Assembly: GCF_000818175.1 (NCBI RefSeq) | Contig: NZ_JTIY01000002.1 | Coordinates: 374,463 to 410,959, forward strand | DNA: 36,497 nt | Source: Streptomyces sp. AcH 505 | GTDB taxonomy: Bacteria > Actinomycetota > Actinomycetes > Streptomycetales > Streptomycetaceae | Direction of reading: 5' to 3' | Shown: piece by piece, positions 2,021-5,255 of the stretch | How positions within the stretch are numbered: position 1 is the first letter of the stretch | How the letters are laid out: every line of letters starts with the position of its first letter | The notes under the pieces: generated by a model | Database searches by the model: none | What the model was told of the DNA's origin: nothing | What the model saw: the letters and a program-made list of their open reading frames with translations, nothing else | Program-made: the position numbers and the translations under genes

Positions 2021-2090
2021 GGTCCTGGCCCGGTCTCAACCGGCCTCAGTCGGTCCCAGTCGGTCCCGTCCGGTCTCAGTCGGTCTTGGC
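2021..2090. repeat. degenerate 10-bp tandem repeat at the 3' end of the SGNH hydrolase gene
   Basis: Consecutive decamers 2031-2090 read CGGTCTCAAC, CGGCCTCAGT, CGGTCCCAGT, CGGTCCCGTC, CGGTCTCAGT and CGGTCTTGGC, with a weaker GGTCCTGG(CC) unit before them. The last unit runs into the final codons and stop of the SGNH hydrolase gene. It sits about 1.2 kb from the 15-bp array between dhaK and dhaL and shares its GGTC-rich character. It gives no strong hairpin. The rest of the 1858-2030 gap holds the dhaK upstream region, with no promoter I can call with confidence. Confidence 0.8.
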
Positions 2091-3263
2091 CACGAAGGGA
2101 CCGTCGGCGCCGAACGCGAGCCGGGCGAAGTTCTCGCCGATGCGCCGCTGCCCCGCCGGGTCCGGGTGGAGCTGGTCGGGCAGGGGAAGCTCGGCGTAGT
2201 CCTCCGGGCCGTACAGGTCGTTGCCGTCGAGGTAGTGCAGATGAGGGTCGTCCGCCGACCGCTGCGCGACGATGCGGGCCAGCTCCTCGCGGATGACGCC
2301 CAGCGTCAGCTTCCCCGCCGCGCGCTCCGCCGGATCGCCGGCCGCCCTGAACCGCAGCGTGCCCTCGGAGATGTCGCTGAAGTCCGGGGCGCTGGGGCCG
2401 GGGGTGTCCTCGTGGATGGGGCAGTGGACGGGGGAGACGACCAGCAGCGGTGCGGTGGGGTGCCCCTCACGGATGGTGTCGAGGAAGCCGTGCACGGCCG
2501 GGGTGAAGGCACGCAGCCGCATCAGGTCGGCGTTGACGAGATTGATGCCGATCTTGACGCTGATCAGGTCGGCCGGGGTGTCCCGCATGGTGCGGGCGGT
2601 GAACGGGTCGAGCAGCGCGCTGCCGCCGAGCCCGAGATTGATCAGCTCCACCGCGCCGAGGGACGCGGCCAGCGCGGGCCAGGTCGTGGTCGGGCTCGCG
2701 GAGTTGGAGCCGTGGCTGATCGAACTCCCGTGGTGCAGCCACACCTTGCGGCCCCGGTCCGGGGCGGGTTCGACGGGCGCGTCGGTGCGCAGCGCGACGA
2801 GCTGGGTGGTCTCGTTGTACGGCAGCCAGATCTCGATGTCCTTGTCCCTGGCGGGCAGTTCGTCGAAGCGGAGCGTGCCGGGCGGGCCCGGTTCCAAGTT
2901 CGCCGTGCCGGTGGTCATGTCGATGTGCAGGACGTTGCCGCCGCTCACACCGGCCTGGCCGGTCAGTTCACCGTCGACGAGCAGGTCGTACACCCCGTCG
3001 GGACGCAGCGGCGCGCCCTCGTAGGACGGCTTGGTGCGCAGGGTTTCGAGTTCGACGGCGGTGGCCCGGGTACGGAACGCCAGCCGCACACCGGACGGCT
3101 GGGACTCCGCCATGGCCAGCTGTCCGTCGGAGTACTGGGCGCGCGCCCAGGCGGGCAGCCGGTGCGGCAGCACGCCCTGTGGGGTCCGCTCCAGTTCGAG
3201 TGCGCCGCGCACGATGTCCTCGGTGATGGGTGTGCTGATCCAGTCGTGCCGGGTGGTGTTCAT
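2076..3263 (-). CDS. SGNH/GDSL-family hydrolase with N-terminal jelly-roll-like domain
   Basis: This 395-aa protein has the two-part layout of actinobacterial SGNH esterases. Residues 1 to about 165 form a beta-rich carbohydrate-esterase-like domain; residues 170 to 385 form the catalytic domain. Block I reads HHGSSISHG (177-185), with Ser181 the likely nucleophile and the usual GDS Asp replaced by Ser. GLGGSA (212-217) supplies the oxyanion glycine, KIGIN near 237 the Asn block, and DQLHPDPAG near the C-terminus the Asp/His pair. No signal peptide is visible, so it should be cytoplasmic. The ATG at 3261-3263 has GGAG four bases upstream. The tightly spaced TetR gene upstream (3349) is transcribed the same way, so they may be co-expressed. 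Substrate unknown; acetyl or acyl esters of sugars are an inference. Confidence 0.85.
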   Translation of the reverse strand: MNTTRHDWISTPITEDIVRGALELERTPQGVLPHRLPAWARAQYSDGQLAMAESQPSGVRLAFRTRATAVELETLRTKPSYEGAPLRPDGVYDLLVDGELTGQAGVSGGNVLHIDMTTGTANLEPGPPGTLRFDELPARDKDIEIWLPYNETTQLVALRTDAPVEPAPDRGRKVWLHHGSSISHGSNSASPTTTWPALAASLGAVELINLGLGGSALLDPFTARTMRDTPADLISVKIGINLVNADLMRLRAFTPAVHGFLDTIREGHPTAPLLVVSPVHCPIHEDTPGPSAPDFSDISEGTLRFRAAGDPAERAAGKLTLGVIREELARIVAQRSADDPHLHYLDGNDLYGPEDYAELPLPDQLHPDPAGQRRIGENFARLAFGADGPFVAKTD

Positions 3264-3348: not shown

Positions 3349-3918
3349 TCAGGACCGGGGCCAGTCGCGCAGCATCGCGTCGAGGGAGTCGACGATCCAG
3401 GTCCAGCTCTCCTGGCTGTCGGGCAGGCTGTGGCTGAAACCACCGCTCATCTCCAGGCTCACGTAGCCGTGGAAGACGCTGCCGAGCAGCCGGACCGCGT
3501 GGGTCTGGTCCGGCTCCGTGAGGGCGTACCCGCGCAGGATCGCCCGCGTCATCTGGGCGTGCCGGACGCCGGCGCTCGCCGCCGCCGTCTCCGGGTCGAG
3601 CCTGAGCCGCGCCGCGTCGTAGCGGCCGGGGTGCTCCCGCGCGTAGTCGCGGTACGCGTCGGCGAAGGCGACCAGGGCGTCCTTGCCCGCGCGCCCCGCG
3701 AGGGCGGCGGAGACACGGTCGGCCAGCTCCTCCAAGGCGTACAGGGCGATCCGGATCCTGAGGTCGTCGGAGCTCTTCAGATGCGAGTACAGACTCGCGA
3801 CCTTGACGTCGTACCGCCGGGCGAGCGCCGAGACGGTCACCTGGTCGAAGCCCACCTCGTCGGCGAGCTCCGCGGCTCCCTGGGTCAGGCGTTCCGGGGT
3901 CAGTCCTGCTCGAACCAT
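3349..3918 (-). CDS. TetR-family regulator with WHG-type C-terminal domain
   Basis: This 189-aa protein has a TetR N-terminal helix-turn-helix (VTVSALARRYDVKVASLYSH, residues about 27-46), followed by an all-helical ligand domain ending in SLEMSGGFSH, typical of the WHG (TetR_C) subgroup. I prefer the ATG at 3916-3918 because GGAGG is seven bases upstream; an ATG two codons earlier sits directly against that Shine-Dalgarno. The gene diverges from the FBP/FusB-like gene, and a perfect 9+9 bp inverted repeat lies between them (3952-3976). It most likely represses itself and that gene. The ligand is unknown. The SGNH hydrolase gene lies 85 bp downstream on the same strand and may belong to the same transcript. 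Confidence 0.9.
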   Translation of the reverse strand: MVRAGLTPERLTQGAAELADEVGFDQVTVSALARRYDVKVASLYSHLKSSDDLRIRIALYALEELADRVSAALAGRAGKDALVAFADAYRDYAREHPGRYDAARLRLDPETAAASAGVRHAQMTRAILRGYALTEPDQTHAVRLLGSVFHGYVSLEMSGGFSHSLPDSQESWTWIVDSLDAMLRDWPRS

Positions 3919-3951
3919 AACCATCCCTCCTTCTGCCGAAACCCATTATGC

Positions 3952-3976
3952 ATTTGCCTAAAACCTCTAGGCAAAT
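3952..3976. promoter_or_regulatory. perfect inverted-repeat operator between TetR gene and FBP-domain gene
   Basis: ATTTGCCTA (3952-3960) and TAGGCAAAT (3968-3976) form a perfect 9-bp inverted repeat around a 7-bp spacer, an AT-richer island in this GC-rich sequence. It is the only such palindrome in the 70-bp divergent region, so it is the natural site for the adjacent TetR protein. It covers the proposed -35 and spacer of the promoter for the 3990 gene, which fits repression by promoter occlusion. Confidence 0.75.
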
Positions 3977-3982
3977 TAGCCT
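3954..3982 (+). promoter_or_regulatory. putative sigma-70-type promoter giving a leaderless mRNA for the FBP-domain gene
   Basis: TTGCCT (3954-3959) and TAGCCT (3977-3982) are separated by 17 bp and resemble -35 and -10 boxes. The expected start of transcription, seven or eight bases after the -10, falls at about 3989-3990, the A of the ATG. No Shine-Dalgarno precedes that ATG, consistent with a leaderless transcript, which is common in actinomycetes. Inference from spacing only. Confidence 0.5.
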
Positions 3983-3989
3983 GCGTATC

Positions 3990-4481
3990 ATGAGGCCGCT
4001 GACTGAGCGAGAGATCCGTACCGCGTTCGTGAACTGTTCCAAGGGCGAGGCGAAGCGTCTGTCCGTCCCCCACGACTTGGCCGAACGGCCCTGGGACGAC
4101 CTGGACTTCTTCGGCTGGCGGGACCTCCAGGTCCCCGGCCGCGCCTGCCTCGCCACGGAGCTGGACGGCCGGACCGTGGCGCTCGTGCTGCGCTGCCCGA
4201 GTCCTGCCTTCCAGCAGGGGCGGCGCAGCATGTGCTCGATCTGTCTGACCACGCACAGCGGAGGGGTCTCGCTGATGGTCGCCCCGAAGGCGGGCAAGGC
4301 AGGCCGGGAGGGCAACTCGGTGGGCGCCTACATGTGCAGCGACCTGGCCTGCCCGCTGTATCTGCGGGGGAAGAAGGACGCGGGTGTGGGCGCGCGGCTG
4401 CACGAGACGCTCACCATGGAGCAGAAGATCGAGCGGACCGTGGGGAACCTCGCGTCGTTCATCGCCAAGGTCACCGCGTGA
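3990..4481 (+). CDS. FBP-domain (FusB/FusC-like) putative EF-G-binding treble-clef zinc protein
   Basis: This 163-aa protein has the two-part plan of the FusB/FBP family: a helical N-terminal part (to about residue 45) and a C-terminal treble-clef zinc finger. The zinc ligands are visible as Cys82/Cys85 (MCSICLTTHSGG) and Cys116/Cys121 (YMCSDLACPLYLRG). Family members in firmicutes bind elongation factor G and rescue fusidic-acid-stalled ribosomes. In actinomycetes the natural role is not established, so 'ribosome or EF-G protection' is inference. I took the ATG at 3990 because the conserved MRPLTEREIRTAF begins there; fourteen more codons upstream would run through the operator. It is divergent from, and probably repressed by, the TetR/WHG gene. 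Confidence 0.85.
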   Translation: MRPLTEREIRTAFVNCSKGEAKRLSVPHDLAERPWDDLDFFGWRDLQVPGRACLATELDGRTVALVLRCPSPAFQQGRRSMCSICLTTHSGGVSLMVAPKAGKAGREGNSVGAYMCSDLACPLYLRGKKDAGVGARLHETLTMEQKIERTVGNLASFIAKVTA

Positions 4482-4514: not shown

Positions 4515-5192
4515 TCAGGCGGCCTCAGGCGCGGCCTCGACGGGGTCGCCCACCGCGCCGCCGGTGGCCGTGCGGATCGCGCCCACGATGCGCGCCGAGA
4601 CGGCCGACAGGTCCTTGAACTGGGCGAGATCGGTGCCGGCCAGCAGCATGGCGCCGATGTCCTCGTCCACCACCCGCATCGCCGCCGCGGCCGTCGCGGC
4701 GTGCAGCCGCACCTCGAGGTCGTCGGCCGGGCGGCTCAGCCGGCTCGCGAGGATGCCGGTCAGCTCGTGTTCCACCTGGTCGCAGGCCATCAGCCAGGCC
4801 GAACGGATCGCCGGCTCCGTGTCGCCGAGGGCGATCATCTTGGTGGCGAGCATTTCGTCGGCCAACTCGGCCGGGTCCACGTCGGTCGCGCGCTTCTTCA
4901 GCTCCGCGACGATGTGATCTTCGAGGGAGCTGTGCCGGGGCCAGTCGCGCATCACGTTCATGAACCACTCGACGCCCTGCGTCACGATCGGCTCGGCGCA
5001 GCTCTCCTTGTTGCGGAAGTGCCGCCAGATGGTGCGTACGGAGAGCCCCACCGCGGCCGCGATCTGCTCACCGCTGGTGTCGGCGACGCCCTGCTTCCAG
5101 AACAGGCGCGCCGCCTCCCGGGAGATTTCGAGCCGCAGCCGCAGCCGTCGCTGCTCACTCATTCCGCCTGCCGCGCGCTTGTCCGCCGCCAT
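4515..5192 (-). CDS. TetR/AcrR-family transcriptional regulator
   Basis: This 225-aa protein has an N-terminal TetR helix-turn-helix: EISREAARLFWKQGV, then SGEQIAAAVGLSVRTIWRHF (about residues 40-59), the latter half being the recognition region. A helical ligand-binding domain follows, with a C-terminal tail rich in Ala and Pro. The ATG at 5190-5192 has GGAGG five bases upstream. It lies 54 bp downstream of the LysR gene on the same strand and faces the FBP-domain gene tail to tail, with no efflux pump or enzyme adjacent to name as target. A cluster of overlapping inverted repeats 40-63 bp upstream (5232-5255) is the likely autoregulatory site. Ligand and targets unknown. Confidence 0.9.
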   Translation of the reverse strand: MAADKRAAGGMSEQRRLRLRLEISREAARLFWKQGVADTSGEQIAAAVGLSVRTIWRHFRNKESCAEPIVTQGVEWFMNVMRDWPRHSSLEDHIVAELKKRATDVDPAELADEMLATKMIALGDTEPAIRSAWLMACDQVEHELTGILASRLSRPADDLEVRLHAATAAAAMRVVDEDIGAMLLAGTDLAQFKDLSAVSARIVGAIRTATGGAVGDPVEAAPEAA

Positions 5193-5231: not shown

Positions 5232-5255
5232 AGTGTCATCGTGTCACTAAGTGAC
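5232..5255. promoter_or_regulatory. overlapping palindromes upstream of the TetR gene at 4515-5192
   Basis: AGTGTCA-TCG-TGTCACT (5232-5248) is an inverted repeat with one mismatched pair per arm. It overlaps a perfect 13-bp palindrome GTCACT-A-AGTGAC (5243-5255). TetR proteins commonly bind sites of this size next to their own start. The second palindrome also contains the LysR stop codon (5247-5249), so the operator is embedded in the end of the neighbouring gene. Confidence 0.55.

Follow-up and report, generated by a model that had tools for sequence, protein, structure and literature searches.

The window, a stretch of 36,497 nucleotides from Streptomyces sp. AcH 505, contains a regulatory switch of a known kind with an unusual pair of targets. 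Comparative sequence data strongly support one palindromic operator of a TetR-family regulator and three target genes: tetR itself, a gene for an SGNH/GDSL hydrolase and a gene for a stand-alone FBP_C protein (FBP) of the FusB/FusC family. The evidence comprises the operator itself, the way in which the promoters are arranged, the conservation of the site in other species, the fact that operator and genes still occur together once they have become unlinked, and the fold family. For the link between TetR and FBP, little more support could be obtained from sequence alone. A 2025 review describes the regulation of FusB homologue expression as unknown (PMC12493156), and our search of the open-access literature, which was not exhaustive, found no paper on the control of a Streptomyces FBP gene. 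A precise regulator, operator and regulon can now be proposed for an actinobacterial branch of the FusB family. The hydrolase, whose link to the regulator an earlier sequence-only reading had overlooked, is a second effector that points to an ester-type signal, and the single-domain FBP offers a means to study the role of the FusB fold at the ribosome apart from fusidic acid resistance. The arrangement suggests a two-part defence against a protein-synthesis inhibitor, and its palindrome appears in many soil actinobacteria, as judged from their genomes.

The regulator gene (3349..3918, minus strand; listed start 3924) encodes a TetR-family repressor with TetR_N and TetR_C_33 domains (PF13305, 2.3e-25, 89.7 bits, cut-off 26.8; PF00440, 2.2e-7, 31 bits, cut-off 24). 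Its start is probably the second ATG at 3918, since AAGGAGGG lies 6 nt before this ATG and the orthologues align from 3918. With this start the divergent gap between tetR and the FBP gene measures about 71 bp, compared with the 70 bp given in the sequence-only reading. The sequence displays the features of a TetR repressor: a helix-turn-helix, a ligand-binding C-terminal domain and a palindromic predicted operator that overlaps the controlled promoters. Streptomyces TetR regulators located less than 200 bp from a divergent neighbour are described to repress that neighbour usually (PMC3511530). TetR/tetA-type modules share with the window locus a TetR regulator, a divergent neighbour at <200 bp, a palindromic operator over both promoters and the expectation of autoregulation. 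However, such modules have two operators and a pump as target, whereas the window locus has one operator, a ribosome-factor domain and a hydrolase as targets, and the hydrolase gene directly behind tetR. Among the immediate neighbours examined, no biosynthetic or resistance cluster was found. A second, unrelated TetR gene (4515-5192) converges on the FBP gene and was matched in loci of the own genome only, and a LysR gene at 5247 was matched elsewhere only weakly, in L375 and L357.

The predicted operator, ATTTGCCTA-N7-TAGGCAAAT (3952..3976, no strand assigned), is a perfect inverted repeat whose 9-nt arms are 100% complementary and which has conserved counterparts upstream of related genes. 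When the 71 bp between the genes were shuffled 20,000 times with dinucleotides preserved, 15 shuffles contained an arm of at least 9 bp with a loop of at most 12. Within the window, TTTGCCTA-N7-TAGGCAAA was found once at up to 3 mismatches, and in none of 100 shuffles. The 9.0 Mb genome of the strain contains one exact operator copy and one place with 3 mismatches, which we attribute to chance because the reversed control pattern gives 5 such places. The perfect 9+9 palindrome reported by the earlier reading was found again, but it is not the sole palindrome of the gap, as other 6-nt palindromes are present in the stretch searched. The predicted FBP promoter (3954..3982, plus strand) consists of TTGCCT (3954-3959), 17 nt and TAGCCT (3977-3982); transcription would begin on the ATG at 3990 or directly beside it. 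It is present as described before, though it is weak and falls below the threshold of a consensus promoter scan. What had been taken for a gap with a single promoter contains another one on the minus strand: the predicted tetR-hydrolase promoter TTGCCT-18-CATAAT (3945..3974) is the one promoter-like match of the consensus scan, overlaps the FBP promoter and has a -10 hexamer conserved in the 36-locus alignment described below. The -35 hexamers of both divergent promoters sit within the operator arms.

Conservation of the operator was analyzed in a genus sample of 150 genomes, including the window's own, of which 134 possess an FBP_C gene. Among the matches listed, 150 FBP loci came from 133 of these 134 genomes (G044 was left out), and in 36 of them, the own locus included, the divergent neighbour is a TetR close to that of the window. 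The operator is present in all 36, where 0-4 of its 18 positions deviate, while the next-best site of each locus has at least 6 mismatches; in the alignment of the 36 rows TAGG is invariant and TTGCCTA is off by one base in a single row. Of 110 TetR orthologues, which were those obtained outside the operator scan (L285-L404 left out), 102 are furthermore preceded by an operator with 3 mismatches or fewer, and for the remaining 8 the best site has 4-5 mismatches. The same pattern reversed never reached fewer than 5 mismatches in these 110 orthologues.

Operator and gene also stay together where regulator and target are apart, and these genomes provide the strongest evidence for the regulatory link. 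All 11 FBP genes of clade A2 (clade membership was set manually on a FastTree tree) lack an adjoining TetR gene, yet have the operator at a distance of 38 bp from the start, with 1-4 mismatches over 16 positions. All 11 genomes encode a TetR orthologue elsewhere with an operator of its own; most of these operators are well preserved, whereas that of G029 is poor, with 5 mismatches. Similarly, L072 (genome G062) is an FBP gene with operator away from TetR, which is located elsewhere in that genome. A TetR orthologue was detected in 48 of 50 genomes with an operator-bearing FBP gene against 51 of 83 with another FBP gene, numbers that are uncorrected for kinship. The two exceptions are G112 and G085. 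In G112 only about 300 bp separate the operator from the edge of its contig, which is 3,681 bases long, so that a TetR gene may be cut off, and G085 has a site with 4 mismatches together with the TetR paralogue described below. Thus control of the FBP gene by TetR through the operator, as proposed in the sequence-only reading, is supported by comparative sequence data, both from the 36 divergent loci and from unlinked FBP genes. Such control does not extend to FBP genes in general, since the operator is absent from the expected place in 48 clade-A1, 41 clade-C, 6 clade-A3 and 5 clade-D genes. The FBP frames of the clade-A3 loci L057, L080, L085 and L087 lie within very long stop-free stretches of more than 600 aa, which may reflect either a fusion or an open frame in GC-rich DNA.

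A scan of named genomes for the exact operator, made blind to the encoded proteins, placed 95 of at least 120 stretches at TetR, FBP and/or hydrolase genes. Among the stretches listed, 46 had all three genes, 20 TetR and FBP, 19 TetR and hydrolase, 5 FBP alone, 4 TetR alone, 1 hydrolase alone (Rhodococcoides fascians) and 25 none of them. Matches at regulon genes among those listed include Streptomyces, Kitasatospora, Actinacidiphila, Micromonospora, Paractinoplanes, Streptosporangium, Nocardiopsis and Microbispora. The 25 off-regulon stretches fit chance, as 24 of them are, by their titles, non-actinobacterial, the exception being Cryobacterium; about 60 chance matches are expected in the whole collection, as estimated from its size. 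Sorting the at least 120 stretches with other thresholds and without the hydrolase gave 68 with TetR and FBP, 22 with TetR only, 4 with FBP only and 26 with neither. The named-genome scan and the genus sample share some species and are therefore not independent surveys. In L376 (Actinomadura alba) a frame that begins like FBP (ATGAAGCCACTGACTGAACCC) comes after the operator but soon loses its resemblance to the family; by its sequence it looks like an FBP remnant, adjoining TetR and a hydrolase match.

These data bear on the most sceptical explanation, that the palindrome is merely a promoter feature or a product of chance and that the genes are regulated independently. TetR genes with divergent partners are common in Streptomyces (PMC3511530), which lends this view some ground. 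However, the same operator occurs within one genome at unlinked tetR and FBP genes, and also at unlinked tetR and hydrolase genes, while the own genome has but one exact copy and the reversed control stays at 5 mismatches or more. This explanation is already disfavoured, and we regard it as highly improbable.

The second effector gene (2076..3263, minus strand) encodes an SGNH/GDSL hydrolase of the SsfX3 kind. Its ATG at 3263 lies 85 bp past the tetR stop on the same strand, and it is probably co-transcribed with tetR. The protein matches Lipase_GDSL_2 (2.8e-10) and SsfX3_N (7.9e-7) as well as the SsfX3 structure 3skv (E 6.9e-34), with which it shares an N-terminal SsfX3 domain and an SGNH catalytic domain. 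SsfX3 itself is called a GDSL acyltransferase; the window hydrolase differs from it by GSSI instead of GDSI around the nucleophile and by its position behind a TetR gene. Ser180, Asn240, Asp362 and His365 (P0003 numbering, without start Met) are invariant in 131 sequences, and we take them to be the catalytic Ser, the block III Asn and the Asp-x-x-His motif. Reading the sequence by eye revealed no obvious signal peptide.

Among 187 TetR loci, unique by sequence, 5 were too short downstream, which left 182 testable ones; the counts that follow are partly operator-selected, as 80 of the 187 came from the operator scan or other fetches. The hydrolase gene adjoins TetR in 155 of 182 loci with a median gap of 70 bp; 84 have the hydrolase without an adjacent FBP gene, 19 have FBP without the hydrolase and 8 have neither adjacent. 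Hence the hydrolase accompanies TetR more widely than FBP does, and the former view of a regulator dedicated to FBP has to be given up. Thirteen genomes, the own one and 12 without a hydrolase beside TetR, were searched for hydrolase genes elsewhere. Six gave a match, five of them unlinked, and four of these five keep an operator (G118 with 1, G148 with 2, G077 with 3 and G106 with 4 mismatches), while no recognisable operator was seen upstream of the unlinked hydrolase of G023. Based on the counts of linked loci and the operators at unlinked hydrolases, the regulon consists of tetR, hydrolase and FBP, with either effector being dispensable.

Such numbers also nourish the main rival of our interpretation, in which TetR mainly regulates the hydrolase as a catabolic or acyl-metabolite switch, while FBP is a housekeeping ribosome factor that some lineages recruited to this operator and that has no link to antibiotics. 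The 84 loci with the hydrolase alone fit this metabolic reading, as do 8 genomes that keep TetR without any FBP match. The authors of a FusB study likewise suggest that FusB homologues encoded on chromosomes may serve housekeeping roles, with protection as a chance effect (PMC12008383). On the other hand, FBP stands next to TetR without an adjacent hydrolase at 19 loci, and 6 of 7 genomes searched that have a linked TetR-FBP pair but no linked hydrolase gave no hydrolase match at E up to 1e-20, so that FBP alone seems enough to keep the regulator. We regard the metabolic reading as possible, if clearly the less likely one, and continue to prefer a repressor that serves both effectors.

The FBP gene (3990..4481, plus strand) encodes a protein of 163 aa that represents a stand-alone C-terminal treble-clef domain of the FusB/FusC family. 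PF16571 covers residues 8-161 (1.4e-58, 197.3 bits, cut-off 27.2), and no other Pfam domain was detected at E up to 0.1. In the class, FBP_C was found in 84 of 246 sampled genomes and 29 of 103 genera. In sequence searches of the PDB the protein on its own had no FusB-type match, even with E values up to 10 allowed, and a profile matched FusC only (E 0.038). The structure model has a mean pLDDT of 69.5 and is low near the zinc site. Foldseek alone yielded no match below E 0.001 and no FusB among the best 50 rows, while re-alignment of the model resulted in Z 9.6 for FusC (rmsd 2.7 over 111 residues) and Z 9.1 for FusB (rmsd 2.8 over 113 residues). Over FusC, FusB and ribosome-bound FusB chains Z was 7.8-9.6, and no other row exceeded 2.9. 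Residues 1-162 of the model align with FusB/FusC from residue 84-95 on. Consequently, as far as sequence and model can tell, FBP is without the N-terminal four-helix 'wedge' domain of FusB.

In an alignment of 26 proteins (the window FBP and 25 of 69 named-genome genes) C82, C85, C116 and C121 are invariant and form a four-cysteine zinc-type site; the zinc motif of FusB is described as CXXC-X23-CX5C (PMC3352095). F156, K184, Y187 and F208 are reported to be essential for binding of FusB to EF-G (PMC3811445). By a mapping inferred via the FusC alignment, F156 corresponds to Met81, K184 to Val111 and Y187 to Tyr114; at these positions the aligned FBP proteins have Met, Ile or Val for F156, an invariant Val for K184 and a nearly invariant Tyr for Y187. 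FBP shares the FBP_C fold, the four zinc-type cysteines and, by this mapping, the Tyr187 equivalent with FusB, FusC, FusD and FusF, but comprises only the C-terminal domain and, on the same mapping, has not kept Lys184 and Phe156. In the rescue complex, the N-terminal domain of FusB wedges between EF-G domains I and V, whereas the C-terminal domain contacts the small subunit as well as EF-G domain IV; in the FusB-70S complex it also reaches the decoding centre (PMC12008383). With such C-terminal contacts and no wedge domain, binding to EF-G or to the A site would be open to the stand-alone domain, but it would lack the lever. EF-G genes are present in the own genome. The view of the sequence-only reading, a FusB-like protein that protects EF-G, is weakened by the missing wedge and the changed K184 and F156 positions, although the fold belongs to the family.

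The same features argue on the question of fusidic acid. One might assume classical FusB-type resistance, with fusidic acid or a close relative as ligand, FBP removing EF-G from the ribosome and the hydrolase cleaving the acetyl ester of the ligand. The fold match of the FBP model to FusB and FusC, far above all other rows, is compatible with this assumption, and the S. lividans esterase FusH is reported to cleave fusidic acid and derivatives (PMC4476819). However, FBP is wedge-less and has two of three mapped EF-G-binding residues changed, and FusH was obtained from extracellular vesicle exudates (PMC4476819), while the window hydrolase has no obvious signal peptide. We therefore consider fusidic acid resistance improbable. 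The mode of control differs as well, as plasmid fusB is controlled by translational attenuation (PMC12493156) and the window FBP gene by a putative repressor. The WblC/WhiB7 regulon of Streptomyces resembles the present one in comprising inducible genes that act on translation factors and the ribosome (PMC7157823), but its regulator is of a type different from the window TetR. Control of FBP by WblC was rejected, as the 'fusB' of that regulon (SCO6589) is listed among EF-G paralogues, not as FBP_C (PMC7157823).

Leaderless mRNAs can be initiated by whole 70S ribosomes, and the FBP mRNA is a candidate for this class. A Shine-Dalgarno-like tetramer was absent from all operator-bearing FBP genes tested (0/36 in clade B, 0/11 in clade A2, 0/47 in total; three basal genes, L056, L078 and L125, were left out), while between -15 and -6 a TAnnnT motif is present in all 11 clade-A2 genes and in all but one of the 36 clade-B genes. 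Sister clade A1, which carries another operator, has the opposite pattern, with a Shine-Dalgarno sequence in 47 of 48 genes and a TAnnnT -10 in 0 of 48. The distance from operator to start was 13, 14 and 15 nt in 8, 52 and 7 of 69 named-genome FBP genes and 16 nt in one; the start of L347 was miscalled, and L288, L299 and L348, which are cut or without start, were left out. The upstream in-frame ATG at 3948 was rejected as FBP start, as the distance between operator and ATG varies by single bases and the homologues begin with M(K/R)PLTE. The leaderless transcript suspected earlier is thus supported at the level of sequence. Such a start is ordinary, since leaderless mRNAs are common in Streptomyces, with 364 in an S. 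griseus map (PMC8914203).

Repression, leaderless start, induction, ligand class and the action of FBP can be joined into the mechanism that we infer as follows. TetR would act as an autorepressor that binds as a dimer to one operator of 23-25 bp. The two outward promoters overlap and have the operator as their spacer. A single dimer bound there would therefore block both of them, and no more than one promoter at a time could be taken up by RNA polymerase. Without ligand, tetR-hydrolase transcription to the left and leaderless FBP transcription to the right would be shut off; a small ligand would free the operator, leading to tetR and hydrolase expression leftward and FBP expression rightward. 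Since an esterase-like enzyme is paired with a domain that binds translation factors, we propose as ligand a translation inhibitor that is acylated or carries an ester, or a similar metabolite, which the hydrolase would cleave. FBP would bind EF-G and/or the ribosomal A site and thereby ease stalled complexes. In its general form, one repressor that couples an esterase to a ribosome- or EF-G-binding factor and is released by an ester-type inhibitor or like metabolite, we consider this mechanism rather probable. One might speculate further on a two-layer defence, in which TetR senses an acylated inhibitor and co-induces a deacylating hydrolase and a FusB C-terminal domain that acts alone at the A site; in this specific form the idea is rather unlikely. 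If it were true, FBP would represent a form from which FusB-type resistance may have arisen, and its leaderless mRNA would let 70S ribosomes start FBP synthesis while normal initiation is blocked.

Besides this switch, a second, related operator became apparent. AACCTAG-N5-CTAGGTT precedes 37 of 48 clade-A1 FBP genes at up to 2 mismatches and has the core CCTA-N7-TAGG in common with the first operator; the clade-A1 gene L015 also carries a site of the first kind (2 mismatches) at -54. Sites of the CCTAG/CTAGG type often precede the gene of a TetR paralogue that is about 58% identical; in the own genome such a site has 2 mismatches. There the AACCTAG pattern occurs 24 times at up to 3 mismatches against 84 for the reversed control, so that only the position before the paralogue speaks for this site. 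The paralogue is present in 42 of 48 A1 genomes versus 43 of 102 others. Regulator and paralogue differ at residues 39 and 42, mostly Asp and Val versus Gly and Asp (103 and 16 rows, with some genomes represented more than once), which are taken to lie in the recognition helix. From this we infer a duplicated regulator with a shifted operator preference, seen as a correlation in related genomes.

A search of 25 clade-A1 genomes revealed two further sites of the first operator at 3 mismatches, in G007 and G122. At unlinked TetR genes of clade-A1 genomes the half-site containing the tetR -35 often remains intact (TTTGCCTAA) and the other half-site drifts (TTAGGTAGA, TTAGGAAAT), as if one arm were held by promoter function. 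Neither operator was found at the 41 clade-C FBP genes. Several of these loci (e.g., L065, L066, L088 and L101) have TTAGTTTC or TTAGCTTTC shortly before the ATG, a pattern that suggests a third mode of control and perhaps also leaderless starts. The own genome, in which the window FBP is the only FBP match, carries the paralogue as L154 (G000:C1:5090258-5090827; 58% identity) with an AACCTAG-N5-CTAGG-type site before the gene. Beside L154, an alpha/beta hydrolase-like frame and a divergent frame can be read from the translations.
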